In this document: positions 9,196 to 22,600 of the stretch, one piece after another
Position numbering within the stretch: position 1 is the first letter of the stretch
Layout: each line of letters opens with the position of its first letter
NCBI GenBank assembly: GCA_018398765.1
Contig: JAHBMJ010001552.1
Location: 5,031-29,086 of the forward strand
Reading direction: 5' to 3'
DNA from: Chromera velia
Taxonomy: Eukaryota > Sar > Chromeraceae
DNA length: 24,056 nt
Notes under the pieces: generated by a model
Told to the model about the DNA's origin: nothing
Database searches by the model: none
What the model saw: only the letters and a program-made list of their open reading frames with translations
Position numbers and translations under genes: made by a program

Positions 9196-10848
9196 ATGGA
9201 TGACCTTCACGTGGTCCCTTCCGACTGGTATTCTTTCGGGCGATCCGAGCACGGCGAGATTGGGCGGCCTCTGGTCCCAGGGAGAGATGGAGAGGCCTCT
9301 GTAATTGCAAGGTGCAGTGCAGTGCCTGGTCGCCTCTCTTTTCGTGCAGGGTCAGTCTGAACAACACAGCTCAGTATTTGACCCTCTGATATGTTGTTTG
9401 CATCTTTTGAACTGTTGCATCTGTTGCAGCTCCAAGGAATTGGACGTGGTCTCGGTCTCTTGTGGAGCTTTTCACAACTTGGCACTAACACGAGACCGCC
9501 GTGTGTTCGGTTGGGGCCTCGCAGACTCTGGTCAGCTCGGACGGGTTCCGAAAAAAACAACGGTAGTAACACCAGTCAAGGTTCAAAGCGTGGCTGGGAA
9601 GAGACGGAGTGCGCGTAAAAGTGCCTCGGATGTTTTCGTGTTCCGTCGGGGTAACGCTGAGGTTTTGGATGTTTCGTTTGTCTCCCGACGGCTCGGCCTC
9701 CTTCCCCCGTCTTCCCCATCGTCGTCAAAGGAGGAGACGGCAGTGGACACGTCCGAAGTCCAGGTCCCCGCTTGTGCCAGTGATGAGCTCTGCCTGGCTC
9801 TGAGTGCCGGGGCCTCGTTGCATGTTGGTCCATCGCGAGGGGGGGAAGAAAAGGAGGTGGGGTTGGAGAAGGAGACGGGTAAAGGGGGAAACGAAACGGG
9901 CCACGGAGGGCAGGGGGAGGCAGCAGAGAAAGAAGAAAAAGGGGAGCAGAAGCCTCCACAGGCAGCAGCGGACGTCCCTTCTTCATCTTCTTCTCCCTCA
10001 CCGGCTCCAGGTGTGCCCCGTTCAAGTGCCGCTGCCTCTGCCTCTCTTTCTCTGTTCCCTTGTGAGTTCGAAAAGCTCCGAGAACAAGAAGAGGAAGCCA
10101 AGAAAGAAGATGAGAGGCAATCCTTGAAGGAGACGGACTTGTGGATAGGTTCCTTTCTAACAGAGGAAGACGAACCCCCCCCAGAGGGCCCGTCGTCCCA
10201 CAGTAGACCAGAGCCGCTTCTCCTTTTTAGAGACCTGCACATCCCCCCACTTCCCTATTCAGTCCGCAGATACGCACAAGCGCATGAGATCCAAAGAGCT
10301 ACCAGCAGCCATTCCGCTTCCTCGCATATGCACAGAGTGAGAGACGAAGAAAGTGTGGCATTCCTAGAGCAACCGCAGTTGCTCCCTTTCTTCTCAGAGG
10401 CCACATCTGTCTCGGCGGGACGCACACACTCCCTGATCTTCTCTACAGGCCCAGCAAACAGCACGGGCCACGGCATGTCCCAATCTGCCTCTGCCGGGTT
10501 TCCTTCTCTCTCTGTGAGTACAGGGGGAAAAAGGGTCGATCCGGGGGAATCTCTGCTTCGGGGTGTCTGGAAGGCGGGGGTTTTGCAGGGGGAGGATGCA
10601 GAAAGGAGTGCGGCGATTGGCGACTCGAAAACCACGGGGGGGGACAGAGAGAAAGAGAGGGAGAGGGAGAAAGACCCCTCTCTTGCTGGAGCAATTGAGA
10701 TGACAGTCAGGGTCAGTCCGTGAGCAGATGTGCTTCTCTCATTGCTCTTCTCTCAACATGCATTTTCTTTGCCTCAGATTCCTTTCTCTTTTTTTGTTCG
10801 TTCGTTCCTTCTTTCGTTCGTTCGATGTGTGTGTCTGTGTCTGTGTCT

Positions 10849-17384: not shown

Positions 17385-17412
17385 TCACACACATATACAT
17401 ACACATACACAT

Positions 17413-17466
<54 letters not shown>

Positions 17467-17625
17467 TCTGTGTGTGTGTGTGTGAGAGAGAGAGAGAGTG
17501 TGTGTGTGAGTGAGAGAGAGAAAGAGAGAGAGTCTCTCTCTCTGTGTGTGTGTGTGTGTGTGTGTGTNGGGAGAGGGAGAGGGAGAGAGGGAGAGGGAGA
17601 GGGGGGGGGAGGGAGGGAGAGAGCC
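17385..17625. repeat. Composite dinucleotide microsatellite with ambiguous base
   Basis: The tract runs (CA)n, (GA)n, (TG)n, (GA)n, (TC)n, (TG)n and then GGGAGA-type units. The window's only N is at 17568, at the boundary between TG and GGGAGA. CA followed by TG, and GA followed by TC, can pair within one strand, which may explain an assembly or read break there. Confidence 0.9.
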
Positions 17626-18045: not shown

Positions 18046-19014
18046 TCACCTGTGTCCAACAGCTTTTGCCACTTTCTCATACCACTCCTTCAAGCTGCCG
18101 TCTCCAAATTCCATCACGTCCTTGTGAGTCTCCAGGCCCTCAATTGACCTCAGGGAAGAGTACACCGCAATGTCCGCAAAAGAAGGCGACTCCCCTTTCT
18201 TGATGAACCCCACACCCCCACTCTTTCCCTCACCCCCTAGTGCCTTTGTGACCGTCCCTAGTGCCTCCATCAGTGCACCCCTTTCGTCCTCTATCTGGTA
18301 TTTCTTCTTCAATTTCCCTTGAGCCATCCACATGGCTGTCGCACCCAACCACTGGCTTCCCATCTTGTCCCAAAAGGAAAAGGAGGGAACCTTGTTGACG
18401 TAAGAAAAGGCCTGGAAGGACTCTGAGAAAGACCGCGTGATGTTCGGAAACAACAACACAGACAATTTCTGGTCCACCCACCTCTCCCATTCTTTGTCCT
18501 CCTCCTCATAGAAACCTGGAGGAGACGGGATGACAGCTCCGGGACCACTCCCTCCTGGAGAGACGGAAAGGAGCTCTGCCAGGATGCGGGAGGAATCCAC
18601 TAGAGCCTTTTCTGTCCCCACAAGCACCACCGGAACCTTCATGTAAGGTTTTCCTTTCTTCTCGTCTAAAGGCAGAATGTCACTCAGCTCTTTGAGCTCC
18701 TTCTTTGACAGTGGATTCACTTCTTTCACTTCATAAGAGACCTTAAGAAAATCGAGCACACTCTTGATCTTGTTGCAGAAGGGACAAATGCTGTACTGCA
18801 AAAGAGTCAGAGGGGGGGGTGCGGAGGATGCTTTGCATGATCCTGCAGTCGCTGTGCTGAAGGCAGGCGACGATCTGCAAACGAAGCTTCTACGCATCAG
18901 GCTTGTCACAGCGAGACGGCCGATGCTCGAGGGAGATCGCAGACCAACACTCAAGGCCAGTCGCCTCGCTGTGTTGAAAACAGAGGAAGACATGGGAAGG
19001 CAGCGAAGTGGCAT
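18046..19014 (-). CDS. Prostaglandin E synthase 2-like GST/glutaredoxin-fold protein (322 aa, no introns)
   Basis: A single open frame. Residues 1-58 are rich in Arg, Ser, Ala and Leu with no acidic residues, as in a mitochondrial presequence. A glutaredoxin-like N-terminal GST domain follows: LTLLQYSICPFCNK with the CPFC redox pair at 77-80, then KVPVV with the cis-proline at 128 and the DSS glutathione-contact position at 140-142. The C-terminal helical domain (about 165-322) carries family features: WERWVDQKLSVLLFPN, LGATAMWMAQGKLKKKY and SFADIAVYSSLRSIEGLE. This matches membrane-associated PGES-2 (PTGES2). In animals that enzyme can isomerise PGH2 or, with haem and glutathione, break it down; in protists its physiological substrate is unknown, so the name describes the family only. 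The first ATG is at 19014, with a second in frame at codon 8. The gene diverges from COQ5 across 639 bp. Lack of introns contrasts with its neighbours. Confidence 0.9.
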   Translation of the reverse strand: MPLRCLPMSSSVFNTARRLALSVGLRSPSSIGRLAVTSLMRRSFVCRSSPAFSTATAGSCKASSAPPPLTLLQYSICPFCNKIKSVLDFLKVSYEVKEVNPLSKKELKELSDILPLDEKKGKPYMKVPVVLVGTEKALVDSSRILAELLSVSPGGSGPGAVIPSPPGFYEEEDKEWERWVDQKLSVLLFPNITRSFSESFQAFSYVNKVPSFSFWDKMGSQWLGATAMWMAQGKLKKKYQIEDERGALMEALGTVTKALGGEGKSGGVGFIKKGESPSFADIAVYSSLRSIEGLETHKDVMEFGDGSLKEWYEKVAKAVGHR

Positions 19015-19653
19015 GAATATCAACTACTTAGTGAATGCTTCCGCACTTCGAGGCGCTGTGTGTCTTTGAAGCGCGATTCGGAGGAGACAGAGAGACGGTT
19101 CAGTGTGAAAGTGCACAAAGCACCCCAGTTACTGGAGGATGAAAAAACAATTAACTCGGTCAACGTTTTTCCTCTACTGGAAACGGAGGCACAGAGCCGC
19201 CACTGCAAGGTATATAGGTGGTCTGACACTTGGGGGTCGGATTGGATGGAGGTAATCGGATCATGATTCGGATGCAGACGGGAGGGGATCCTGGCACTGA
19301 GTCAGTAAGTGACTGCAAGTCTGCAAAGAGACGGCCGCGAGACGCGCGGAGGCGCGGGCCCCGTAATTCGTTTTTTTCCTCTTTTCCAGCCCCTCGCACT
19401 CGCACACCAGGTTCTCAGGTCAGGCGATCCAATGATCAACTGGCTCAGAAGCAATCTTCCCGTCGGATCGAACTCGTCGTTCCGTCCGCAATGTGGACTG
19501 CAGAGGTGGAAAGAGCACCTGTTGGTACCGCGCCTGTGCCGTTCACCTGTCTGTGTCTGCGTTTTGGTATGGACCGTTCGTGAAGAAGAAAAAAAAACTT
19601 TGAACCCTTTGTCCATCTGTCCTGACAGTCTCCCCCGACAAAAATTCTGGACG
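19015..19653. promoter_or_regulatory. Divergent promoter/leader region of PGES2-like and COQ5 genes
   Basis: This 639-bp spacer must hold promoters for both genes. On the plus strand the COQ5 frame is open upstream of the chosen start, and a possible leader intron lies at 19305-19389. No sequence-specific factor site could be assigned. Confidence 0.4.
19305..19389 (+). other. Possible 85-bp leader intron of COQ5
   Basis: It begins GTAAGTGAC, the best consensus donor in the window, and ends in a pyrimidine tract plus CTTTTCCAG. If spliced, the frame from ATG 19263 joins the COQ5 frame without a stop, giving a longer N-terminus. It may instead be a 5' untranslated intron, or not used at all. 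Confidence 0.4.
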
Positions 19654-22600
19654 ATGCACCGCCTCGCTCTCCTCCCTCGAACACTTGCGAGCACGCTAAG
19701 CTCACGACAAAGATTTTGTTATCGGACTGCCGCCATCGGGAGACGGTTTATGGCCTCAAAGAAGCAGGGTGGAGGGAATGGAGAGGAGACGGGAGATAAG
19801 ACTGAGCCGTCTACCCCCTCTTCCTCACACGACTCGAGCTCCTCCTCTCAAGGGTCCCCTTCTTCCTCTGCTTCTGCTTCTGCTTCCTCTTCCCCCTCCT
19901 CCGTCTCGTTTGGTTTCCGTGAGGTGTCGGAGAACGTGAAGGAGAGCCTCGTCAAGGGAGTCTTCAGCAGCGTCGCCTCGAAGTACGATCTTATGAACGA
20001 CCTCATGTCCTTAGGTCAGAGCGAAGGGGGGGGATAGGCGGGGATGGAGGGAAGCCAGGGATGGGGGGGTGATGAGGATACATTGAAGGATGAGAAAACG
20101 AATTATCGATGGTGTGACGAACCATAGGGGGCATCGAAGGTACGAAGGTTTCACCACTCCTGAAATCGCTTGCGCCCTCCATGCATGCGTGCGTTGTTCC
20201 CGGTGTGTGCAGGTATCCACCGACTCTGGAAGGACCAGTTCATCCGCCAGATAGGTCAGCCTGTCAATCAGCCAGTCCGTCGGTAGGGCCCCTTGGCTGG
20301 TTGGTTGGGGCTTTTCCTCCTCCTTTGAGGCTGACTTGTGTGGAAGGAGCCATCCGGGACCTATTTTTTATTATTATTCTTCCGTCAGTGATCAGCTGAC
20401 CCACACACGAACGTCCCGGTCTTGCATTCGTCTCCCTTCTTTAGTCACATGAAGTCCTTTTCAGTGTGAAATTTGCTCCAGAAGGCCCGTAGGTAGTCTT
20501 ACCCTCTTTGTTCCTTCTGTGATGCAGACTTGCACCCAAGCTTGTCAGGAGAGGGAAGGGGGAGTCTGAAAGTTGTTGACATTGCAGGGGGCACTGGTGA
20601 CATTGCCTTCCGTCTCCTTGAGGACTTCGAATCGAAGAAGAGAGGGATGAAGGGGGAGACTGGACATGCAGAGAAAGGGGGTGAAGAGACTGAAGCTGCG
20701 GGAACGAAGGAAGGGGAAGAAACGGGGGCGGAGAAGGCAGGCCCATCTCTGACGGTGACAGTTGTGGACATCAACGAGAGCATGTTGGAGATGGGGAAGA
20801 AGAGGGCAGGGGAGACCGAAGAGCTGAAAAAATTCGGTTGGTCTCACTCCAATGGTGAGGGAATACAAGTTTGATTTTAGTTTTCCTTTTCCGTGTGTTT
20901 TCAGCTTGGAGGCGGGAATGAATGGAGAAGTTCAATGGACAATCTGGTTCGGTAGGCCAGAGAGGGTGCTGTCGTTTACTTGCCTTTTTGTCTGAACACA
21001 TGCCCTTCTTTCTTTCCTTTGTCTTGTCTCGTCTGATGTGCTATGCCCTCTCTGCAGCACTTTTTGTTTCTTCCTGTATGAAAGTAAATGCATGCACCCT
21101 TCTTTCCTTTCTCTCGTCTCGTCTGATGTGCTATGCCCTCTCTGCAGCACTTTTTTTTTTTCCCCTGTATGAAAGTAAATGCATGCACCCTTCTTTCCTT
21201 TCTCTCGTCTCGTCTGATGTGCTATGCCCTCTCTGCAGCACCGTCACTTGAGTGGAAGTGTGGAAGCGGTGAGGCCCTGCCCTTCGAAGACAACTCTGTG
21301 GACCTCGTGACCATCTGTCGGTCTTGTTCTCTTTCACCAGAGGGTTGTTAAGTAATGTGTTGACTCGATCAGATGGTTGGGTGGCTGCTTAGACAGAGAC
21401 GGAAGATAGTCAGCCAGACATTCCTGTATGCCAGTAGAGCTGCCAATCCATGAGGAAACTAGTCAATCATGAGGTGCTTCAGGAAGAGACGTCGAGAAAT
21501 GTCTTCGAGAATGGCTCAATTTTGACGTTTTTCCCCCTCCAATGAAGGCGGGGTTTCCAAACTGCCGTGTCTCTATTCCCGTTCATCTAAATTATTCAAG
21601 ATAAATCTCATTGTTCTTTTCTTCCGTCACCCTTTCCTTTCCTTTGCGTGTGCAGCTTTTGGAATTCGAAATTTTTGTATGAAAGTATGAGAGTATTCTG
21701 CATGAAAGTAAATCCTCTCCTTTGTGTGTGCAGCTTTTGGAATTCGAAACTTCACTCACATAGACAAGGGACTTGCGGAATTCTTTCGAATCTTGAAGCC
21801 GGTCAGCACTTAATTCCATTTTATTCTTTTTCCTTCCTTTGTCCCTTTCGCTTTCCTCCATGATGCTTTCTCCTCTGCCAAGGGTCGCGCCTCCGTCTGA
21901 CTGATTTGGATCTGGTCGATCTTCTGCATTCTGAATTTCGTTTCCTTTTCGAATCCCTCCCGGATTCCCCTCTGGTTCCTCCATTCGGGTCTGCCCTCCC
22001 TGACTCGGGGTCCTTCCTGGGACAGAATGAAGTGTCGCACTGTTCCTTTCCTTGCAACCTCCCAGACTCTCCCAAGATATCTCTCTGTGTGATTTGATGG
22101 ATGCAGGGAGGAAGATTCTTTTGCCTCGAATTCTCGAAGGTTGAAAACGAAACTCTGAGGACAGTATATGATCAGTACTCATTCAACGTCAGTCAGTCAG
22201 TCAGTCAGTCAGCCTGTCTGTCTGTCATATCGATCAGTCAATTTGTCGATTTGTCCAGTAGTCGGCCAATGAATCATCAGCCATTCGACCAGTCTGGCGC
22301 TGTTCTGATGCTTCCTGAAAACTCTCTGCGTACCCTTTCTCCTTCGTCCCTCTTTCATGGGTGAAACATGAAGCCTCGAACCGTGTTCCAAAAACTGCAG
22401 AGGGGGGGCGGGGCACTTTTTTTCTTCTGCTGCATCGTTTTCTTTTCTTCACCTGCCCTTCTCTCCTCTCCTCTCCTCTCCTCCCTGCCTTCCGCGTTGT
22501 TGCTGCTGAAACCTCTGTGGATCCTCAGGTCATCCCGGAACTCGGACACGTCGTTGCGAACGATCGGGAGAGCTATCAGTATCTGGTAGGTTGGTCAGAC

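Follow-up and report, generated by a model that had tools for sequence, protein, structure and literature searches.

Short inserts with inverted arms and duplicated target sites at splice acceptors of COQ5 and at more than 100 other sites in the same genome

Duplicated splice acceptors in the COQ5 gene

The window considered here, the whole stretch of 24,056 nucleotides that was analyzed, carries COQ5 on its forward strand. Seven exons were modelled. Exons 1 to 3 (19654..20014, 20213..20254 and 20528..20854), exon 6 (22107..22187) and exon 7 (22529..22585) were placed by the spliced reading frame, while exon 4 (21239..21316), which follows a triple acceptor, and exon 5 (21734..21801), which follows a double acceptor, were placed by the reading frame and by collinearity with yeast Coq5. 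Exon 7 is the last one modelled, and the gene continues beyond it. When joined by way of the third acceptor of intron 3 (21239) and, in the intron after it, the second acceptor (21734), the seven exons give an open reading of 338 amino acids. The spliced product matches the Pfam family Ubie_methyltran (PF01209) with an E-value of 1.1e-65 and 221.7 bits, and its alignment with yeast Coq5 (4OBW) is collinear over both junctions with duplicated acceptors. An earlier note on this DNA had named the gene as COQ5, and both of these results confirm that assignment.

The introns of this gene show an unusual donor preference. At five of the six, the donor is GTCAG or GTCGG instead of GTRAG (20015, 20255, 21317, 21802 and 22188), and TGCAG forms the acceptor end at five of the six. 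Elsewhere in the window, an ORF of 325 amino acids on the reverse strand (18046-19023) contains GST N-terminal and glutaredoxin-like domains (Pfam GST_N_3, GST_N_2 and Glutaredoxin), and we take it to resemble prostaglandin E synthase 2. Long degenerate TG/TGTA microsatellite arrays occupy positions 1128-2437, and other dinucleotide arrays lie near 10826 and at 17386-17567.

Intron 3 contains a tandem array in which its 3' splice site is present three times. Tandem Repeats Finder (TRF) reports the array at 21010-21241, with a period of 91, 2.6 copies, 95% matches and a score of 420. A repeat search gives 96% identity between the units at 21061-21150 and 21152-21241. Identity falls to 71% over 90 nt for the first register, 20971-21060, since the copy there is confined to the right part. 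The array is composed of three target copies and two inserts, all read on the forward strand. Target copy 1 (21010..21060, 51 nt) contains the pyrimidine tract, CTCTCTGCAG and the first three exon bases, CAC, with its acceptor end at 21057. It is followed by insert a (21061..21099, 39 nt), which consists of a T-rich stretch and one arm, TGTATGAAAGTAAATGCATGCA, of a sequence found throughout the genome and referred to below as X. Target copy 2 (21100..21150) has its acceptor end at 21147 and is separated by insert b (21151..21190, 40 nt), a second copy of the insert with a T-run unlike that of insert a, from target copy 3 (21191..21241). The latter adjoins the intact exon, has its acceptor end at 21238 and is the sole copy that keeps the COQ5 frame. 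Of the 51 positions, 49 are identical between the outer target copies. Two positions set copy 1 apart from copies 2 and 3, and the 45 nt upstream of acceptor 2 are the same as those upstream of acceptor 3, while those of acceptor 1 differ at two positions. Both of the spacers between the copies contain TGTATGAAAGTAAATGCATGCA. Intron 3 is longer by the two units, which measure 90 and 91 bp.

Much of this had been anticipated. The earlier note described a complete 3' splice site in three tandem copies at 21003-21238, and these are present as 51-nt copies spaced 90 and 91 bp apart, with acceptor ends at 21057, 21147 and 21238 as it gave them. It also proposed that only the third acceptor is productive, and exon joining agrees: the COQ5 reading stays open with acceptor 3 only, while the use of acceptor 1 or 2 shifts the frame and then leads to a stop. 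The proposal of a 90-91 bp unit repeated three times held in part. The acceptor itself is copied three times, but the first register is partial and the unit also contains a spacer with an X arm.

The next intron possesses a similar arrangement, again on the forward strand. Here, target copy 1 (21635..21674, 40 nt) has its acceptor end at 21655, followed by 19 exon-like bases, and its use leads to a stop. The insert (21675..21712, 38 nt) contains partial X arms, TGTATGAAAGTA...GCATGAAAGTAAA, and target copy 2 (21713..21752) has its acceptor end at 21733 and keeps the COQ5 frame. The array had earlier been regarded as a feature of one intron; the next COQ5 intron and more than 100 other sites are alike. 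An assembly artefact is an unlikely source of the COQ5 array because the two inserts have unlike T-runs, two positions distinguish copy 1 from the other copies, and the same anatomy recurs at more than 100 places.

These observations show that the repeated acceptor of COQ5 is a target-site duplication of about 51 bp, made by an insert of X and its reverse complement at the border of intron 3 and exon 4. The combination of insert and target copy occurs a second time in tandem, and one intron further on a separate insertion duplicated the acceptor in the same way.

Sequence X and the anatomy of its inserts

Sequence X is about 40 nt long and reads approximately TGCATGCRTTTACTTTCATACAGAATTCTTTTTCAGGGAGC. 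Pieces of X and of its reverse complement, together with filler, make up the inserts. Within the same 177.8-Mb genome assembly, the 16-mer TGTATGAAAGTAAATG has 401 exact matches and the X core TTTCATACAGAATTC has 1,086, with none for the reversed control of either; a related X core has 1,004, with 15 for its reversed control. The loci studied comprise 59 that represent every place among the first 100 TGTATGAAAGTAAATG matches listed, 20 further regions, several of which were picked for looking like arrays or pairs, and 30 later loci. Because each site was located through an exact match to part of X, copies that have degenerated are under-represented. Duplicates (L002, L003, L005 and L007), loci at a place already represented (L085, at that of L004, and L096-L099, at that of L095) and L108, though a direct repeat is visible there, lie outside the counts.

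X is not a telomeric hexamer array. No match was found to a 21-mer of X in viral contigs or to a 24-mer in a collection of prokaryote genomes, and an Rfam search of five X-insert loci gave nothing above the gathering score, with only microRNA and two small-RNA models falling below theirs. A search that was not exhaustive turned up no template gene, no enzyme and no longer relative of the insert. Close direct repeats that lack the arm motif account for 15 of the 91 clusters in 212 kb; inspection by eye shows that several of these are simple tandem repeats, while others contain degenerate relatives of X. Degenerate TTAGGG-like repeats occur within the contig at L001 (2926-3016). L084 contains a nuclear PsaD exon in which 146 of 148 aligned residues are identical to PDB chain 9HYU_D, and the genome is therefore that of a photosynthetic eukaryote.

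The anatomy seen in COQ5 is general among the sites examined, with direct repeats flanking an X-built insert at 105 of 112. The 88 sites that were detected automatically, from the first two groups of loci and the window, were scored for flanking repeats against a control of 1,499 cross-site pairs, for which the maximum score was 20.5 and the 99% point 14.0. Scores exceed 13 at 84 of the 88 sites and 20.5 at 73. At a threshold of 14, 82 of the 88 were kept, and the six sites below it were left out of later counts. For the later loci, 23 of the 24 analyzed reach this score. The remaining one, L095, has a 25-bp repeat by eye and was probably missed by the automatic test since its insert exceeds the search span. 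At the 82 sites the repeats are 17-74 bp long, with a median of about 39, and single inserts (n = 67) measure 29-144 bp, with a median of 62. The two repeat copies are still identical at 25 of the 105 sites.

The inserts vary in composition. X and reverse-complement X arms stand at both ends of 65 of 90 inserts. At least one arm went undetected in the other 25, a figure to be read with the detector in mind, which requires an arm to lie no more than 14 nt from the end, and with the composite nature of some inserts. An intact palindrome centre is present at two places only. Three or more target copies were counted at 26 of the 105 sites, COQ5 included; this is a count of 12-mers in a sample where several arrays were chosen on purpose, and a few of the counts may reflect low-complexity repeats.

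Some individual loci are worth recording. Strongly amplified arrays of insert and target, with four to ten target copies by the 12-mer count, are present at L023, L035, L038, L001 and L074, and in several of these the units are nearly identical. Two apparently related gene copies on contig C487 (L052 and L053) each carry an insert at a similar exon start, which could mean that the same position was hit twice independently or that the insertion preceded the gene duplication; the repeat score of L053 is only 12. The inserts of L026 and L060 have a GTAT or AT microsatellite interior beside the X arms. Paired inverted arms lying 2.9 kb apart on contig C1386 and 0.7 kb apart on contig C1427 were considered as candidates for an autonomous element and were rejected, as they are separate insertions, each with its own repeats.

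Association with splice junctions

Splice motifs were counted in the empty sites rebuilt from the flanks of the inserts. TGCAG occurs within 41 of the 105 repeats, compared with 13.9 expected from length-matched local windows, and within 19 of 97 compared with 7.7 when 8 nt are trimmed off each repeat end. An excess, though a smaller one, is also seen for TGCA with any base but G after it (43 of 105 versus 22.0, and 20 versus 12.5 after trimming). Part of the TGCAG excess may come from a preference of the insert ends for TGCA. Pyrimidine-rich acceptors are likewise raised (38 of 105 versus 23.4). As for donors, the GTC[AG]G[TC] type seen in most COQ5 introns is found in 22 of 105 repeats versus 10.5, mostly near repeat ends, and its excess is gone after the 8-nt trimming (8 of 97 versus 6.0). 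No enrichment of GT[AG]AG[TC] donors was found in the 105 repeats (6 versus 6.0), and GGTRNGY donors are not clearly raised among them (8 versus 5.7).

Protein homology provides firmer cases. Sixty ORFs, each chosen for its overlap with a repeat, were put through Pfam, and six gave a match above the curated cut-off. Because matches were obtained for six of 60 ORFs, all chosen for repeat overlap, most junction calls rest on motif statistics. The ORF with the match reaches the repeat at L010 (EGF), L032 (FAD_binding_2), L042 (Cyt-b5), L064 (DnaJ), L079 (UCH) and L081 (Gpi1). At L042 and L064 the match lies further along the same ORF, and the border was placed by the motif. When judged by motif and frame, all six Pfam-anchored sites have a splice-like border within the repeat (five acceptors and one donor), and both COQ5 duplications likewise contain a splice border when read in this way. 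The exon-side copy of L081 encodes WNVLRKRVDSC, and the intron-side copy does so without the cysteine (DSCAF versus DSPAF). Weak matches to Atrophin-1 (L022) and Ank_3 (L016) fell below the cut-off and were not counted.

Systems already described resemble these inserts in some respects. Introners share with them the short elements, the inverted and direct repeats, the occurrence in protist genes and the link to splice sites, as described in two reports (PMC9860276, PMC7789003). According to these reports, introners are themselves whole introns, with direct repeats of 3-9 bp (PMC9860276), or 3-5 nt in Amoebophrya (PMC7789003). In contrast, the X inserts duplicate splice sites that already exist, have repeats of 17-74 bp and lack an end-to-end match between copies. 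An introner is a spliceosomal intron placed in a formerly continuous exon, whereas at the six Pfam-anchored sites and in both COQ5 introns the repeat, read from motif and frame, contains an exon-intron border that already existed. Direct repeats at intron/exon borders have also been described from many taxa and ascribed to insertion and break repair, with lengths of 4-30 bp and a mean of 11.4 bp (PMC11782384). Unlike those repeats, the ones described here belong to one sequence family, have a median length of 39 bp and can hold a complete splice site. No description of such inserts was found among the results listed from a literature search that did not extend to subscription journals and preprints.

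Origin of the inserts and its meaning

Taken as a whole, the favored explanation is that an X insert duplicates its target, that the insert is made afresh at each site and that amplification follows later at some sites. We assign this explanation a probability of about 0.6. One component of it, that the insert is made afresh at each site and is not a copied transposon, stands by itself at about even odds.

The evidence for this component comes from comparisons between inserts. For the 90 inserts of 160 bp or less, a set that leaves aside the longer inserts of 15 of the 105 sites and includes a few composites holding a target copy, nearest-neighbor identity has a median of 0.75 and a maximum of 0.87, and no pair reaches 90%. 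The repeats around 27 of these 90 are at least 97% identical. The start base within X varies over at least 8 nt. At 91 ends, the target matches the upstream X bases over a mean of 1.65 nt, compared with 0.55 in shuffled and 0.38 in random flanks; ends that start at least 8 bases before the anchor were left out, and some of the apparent microhomology may arise from alignment boundaries between repeat and insert that are ambiguous by a few bases, but chance extension by itself would be expected to yield only about 0.4 nt. The arms are cut at different inner points among inserts, and L095 and L115 each contain one insert in which near-perfect arms are reused several times in one direction. Because the inserts are dissimilar, their starts vary and show microhomology, and their arms are variably cut or reused, copying of a template at both break ends is suggested.

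The process could proceed as follows. A staggered break would leave two 3' ends, each of which would anneal to a short RNA or DNA template over a few bases, often ...CA or ...TGCA. The paired ends would be extended with X and then joined, producing X and its reverse complement with arms of variable length and, at times, repeated priming. Gap filling would then create the long direct repeats, and tandem amplification would follow at some sites, COQ5 among them. Frame and homology indicate that the original mRNA would be restored by splicing to the target copy next to the intact exon, so that the insert and the extra copies become intron. A more specific version can be put forward tentatively, and we regard it as possible rather than probable. 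It holds that a recurrent repair-like process uses a template of about 40 nt, possibly RNA, and a telomerase-like reverse transcriptase at the two 3' ends that a staggered break leaves, with many of the breaks at splice junctions. Each insert would then be unique, entire splice sites would be duplicated and intron borders would shift while the mRNA stays unchanged, with neither a transposon nor an introner involved.

The nearest known case that we found is telomerase-dependent insertion at breaks, to which the X inserts may be compared by analogy. A report on mammals describes insertions composed of telomeric pieces and pieces of telomerase RNA in opposite orientation, with microhomology (PMC2246262). 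The features in common would be templated sequence at break ends, microhomology, fragments in opposite orientation and reuse of the template, as seen in the insertions derived from telomerase or its RNA (TERC). Duplication of the target, which is the rule here, is recorded there at only 4.6% of rodent and 16% of primate loci. The X inserts differ further in that X is not a telomeric hexamer, the same sequence is usually added at both ends, and there is an enrichment for splice junctions.

A mobile element has to be weighed against the favored explanation. Foldback elements and miniature inverted-repeat transposable elements (MITEs) have inverted-repeat ends, target duplications and many copies. 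The X inserts share all three features and have no coding capacity that was seen, and could represent a near-perfect palindrome of about 75 bp, mobilized by a transposase, with long and variable target duplications, and scrambled after insertion. Palindromes are unstable, so even a precise one of this size could be scrambled later; an intact centre survives at two places, and by eye the variants GCATTTAC, GCGTTTAC, GCATTTTC and GCATTCATTTTC tend to be common to both arms of a copy. Against this, the duplications (17-74 bp) are long and have no fixed length, and the ends are imprecise, with a variable start in X and microhomology. No 90%-identical pair occurs among the 90 inserts, though 27 are young by their repeats, and in 25 of the 90 a detector limited to 14 nt from the end fails to find one or both arms. 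The arm pairs 0.7 and 2.9 kb apart also prove to be separate insertions with their own repeats. On balance, we consider such an element unlikely, yet a serious competitor of the favored explanation.

Target-primed reverse transcription of the LINE type appears more doubtful still. LINE-type events are known to produce target duplications of variable length, truncation and microhomology. An insert would here represent the 3' end of a retroelement RNA, and twin priming, at both ends, could generate the inverted arms. The variable target duplication is encountered, and T- or A-runs, which a retroelement could also account for, adjoin an arm in some inserts (such as COQ5, L036, L059 and L082), but such runs are absent from many others. 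Furthermore, the 90 inserts of up to 160 bp contain nothing longer than pieces of X and filler, and the longer spans, not every one of which was read individually, have at least three arms and look like arrays.

The earlier note had raised the possibility that non-productive splicing tunes COQ5 output, which would make the tandem acceptors a regulated switch. Acceptors 1 and 2 are nearly identical to acceptor 3 and both lead to stops, so non-productive isoforms are possible. The note's other option, that the cell tells these acceptors apart, is possible too. However, the same kind of duplication occurs in several unrelated genes and at more than 100 sites, and the cysteine of L081 is kept in the exon-side copy only, as expected if selection acts there alone. 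A switch is very improbable, and these data offer no support for selection on the tuning of COQ5 output. A simple tandem duplication that involves no inserted element, whether by replication slippage or by unequal exchange, can be set aside almost entirely: the COQ5 array is tandem with a period of 90/91, and at least three target copies occur at 26 of 105 sites (by 12-mer count, with several arrays chosen on purpose and a few counts perhaps due to low-complexity repeats), but the COQ5 units hold X-family sequence that is foreign to the target and whose core has 1,086 genome matches against none for the control, and slippage or unequal exchange is kept only as the later amplification step.

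In conclusion, the favored explanation, a target duplication by an X insert, makes what seemed a curiosity of one gene part of a process that acts across the genome. Its many events differ in age, and the repeats are still identical at 25 of 105 sites. It fits that the insertions are tolerated since an intact copy of the splice site stays beside the exon, and the simplest reading is that the insertion does nothing for the cell. The edge of an exon can take an insertion harmlessly in this way, as the duplication supplies a spare splice site, and the sites also offer natural cases of near-identical acceptors competing in one organism. Should every insert be newly made on a short template, the inserts would constitute a natural record of templated break repair. 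If the repair-like reading is true, intron-exon structure would have been changed in this genome neither by a transposon nor by an introner.
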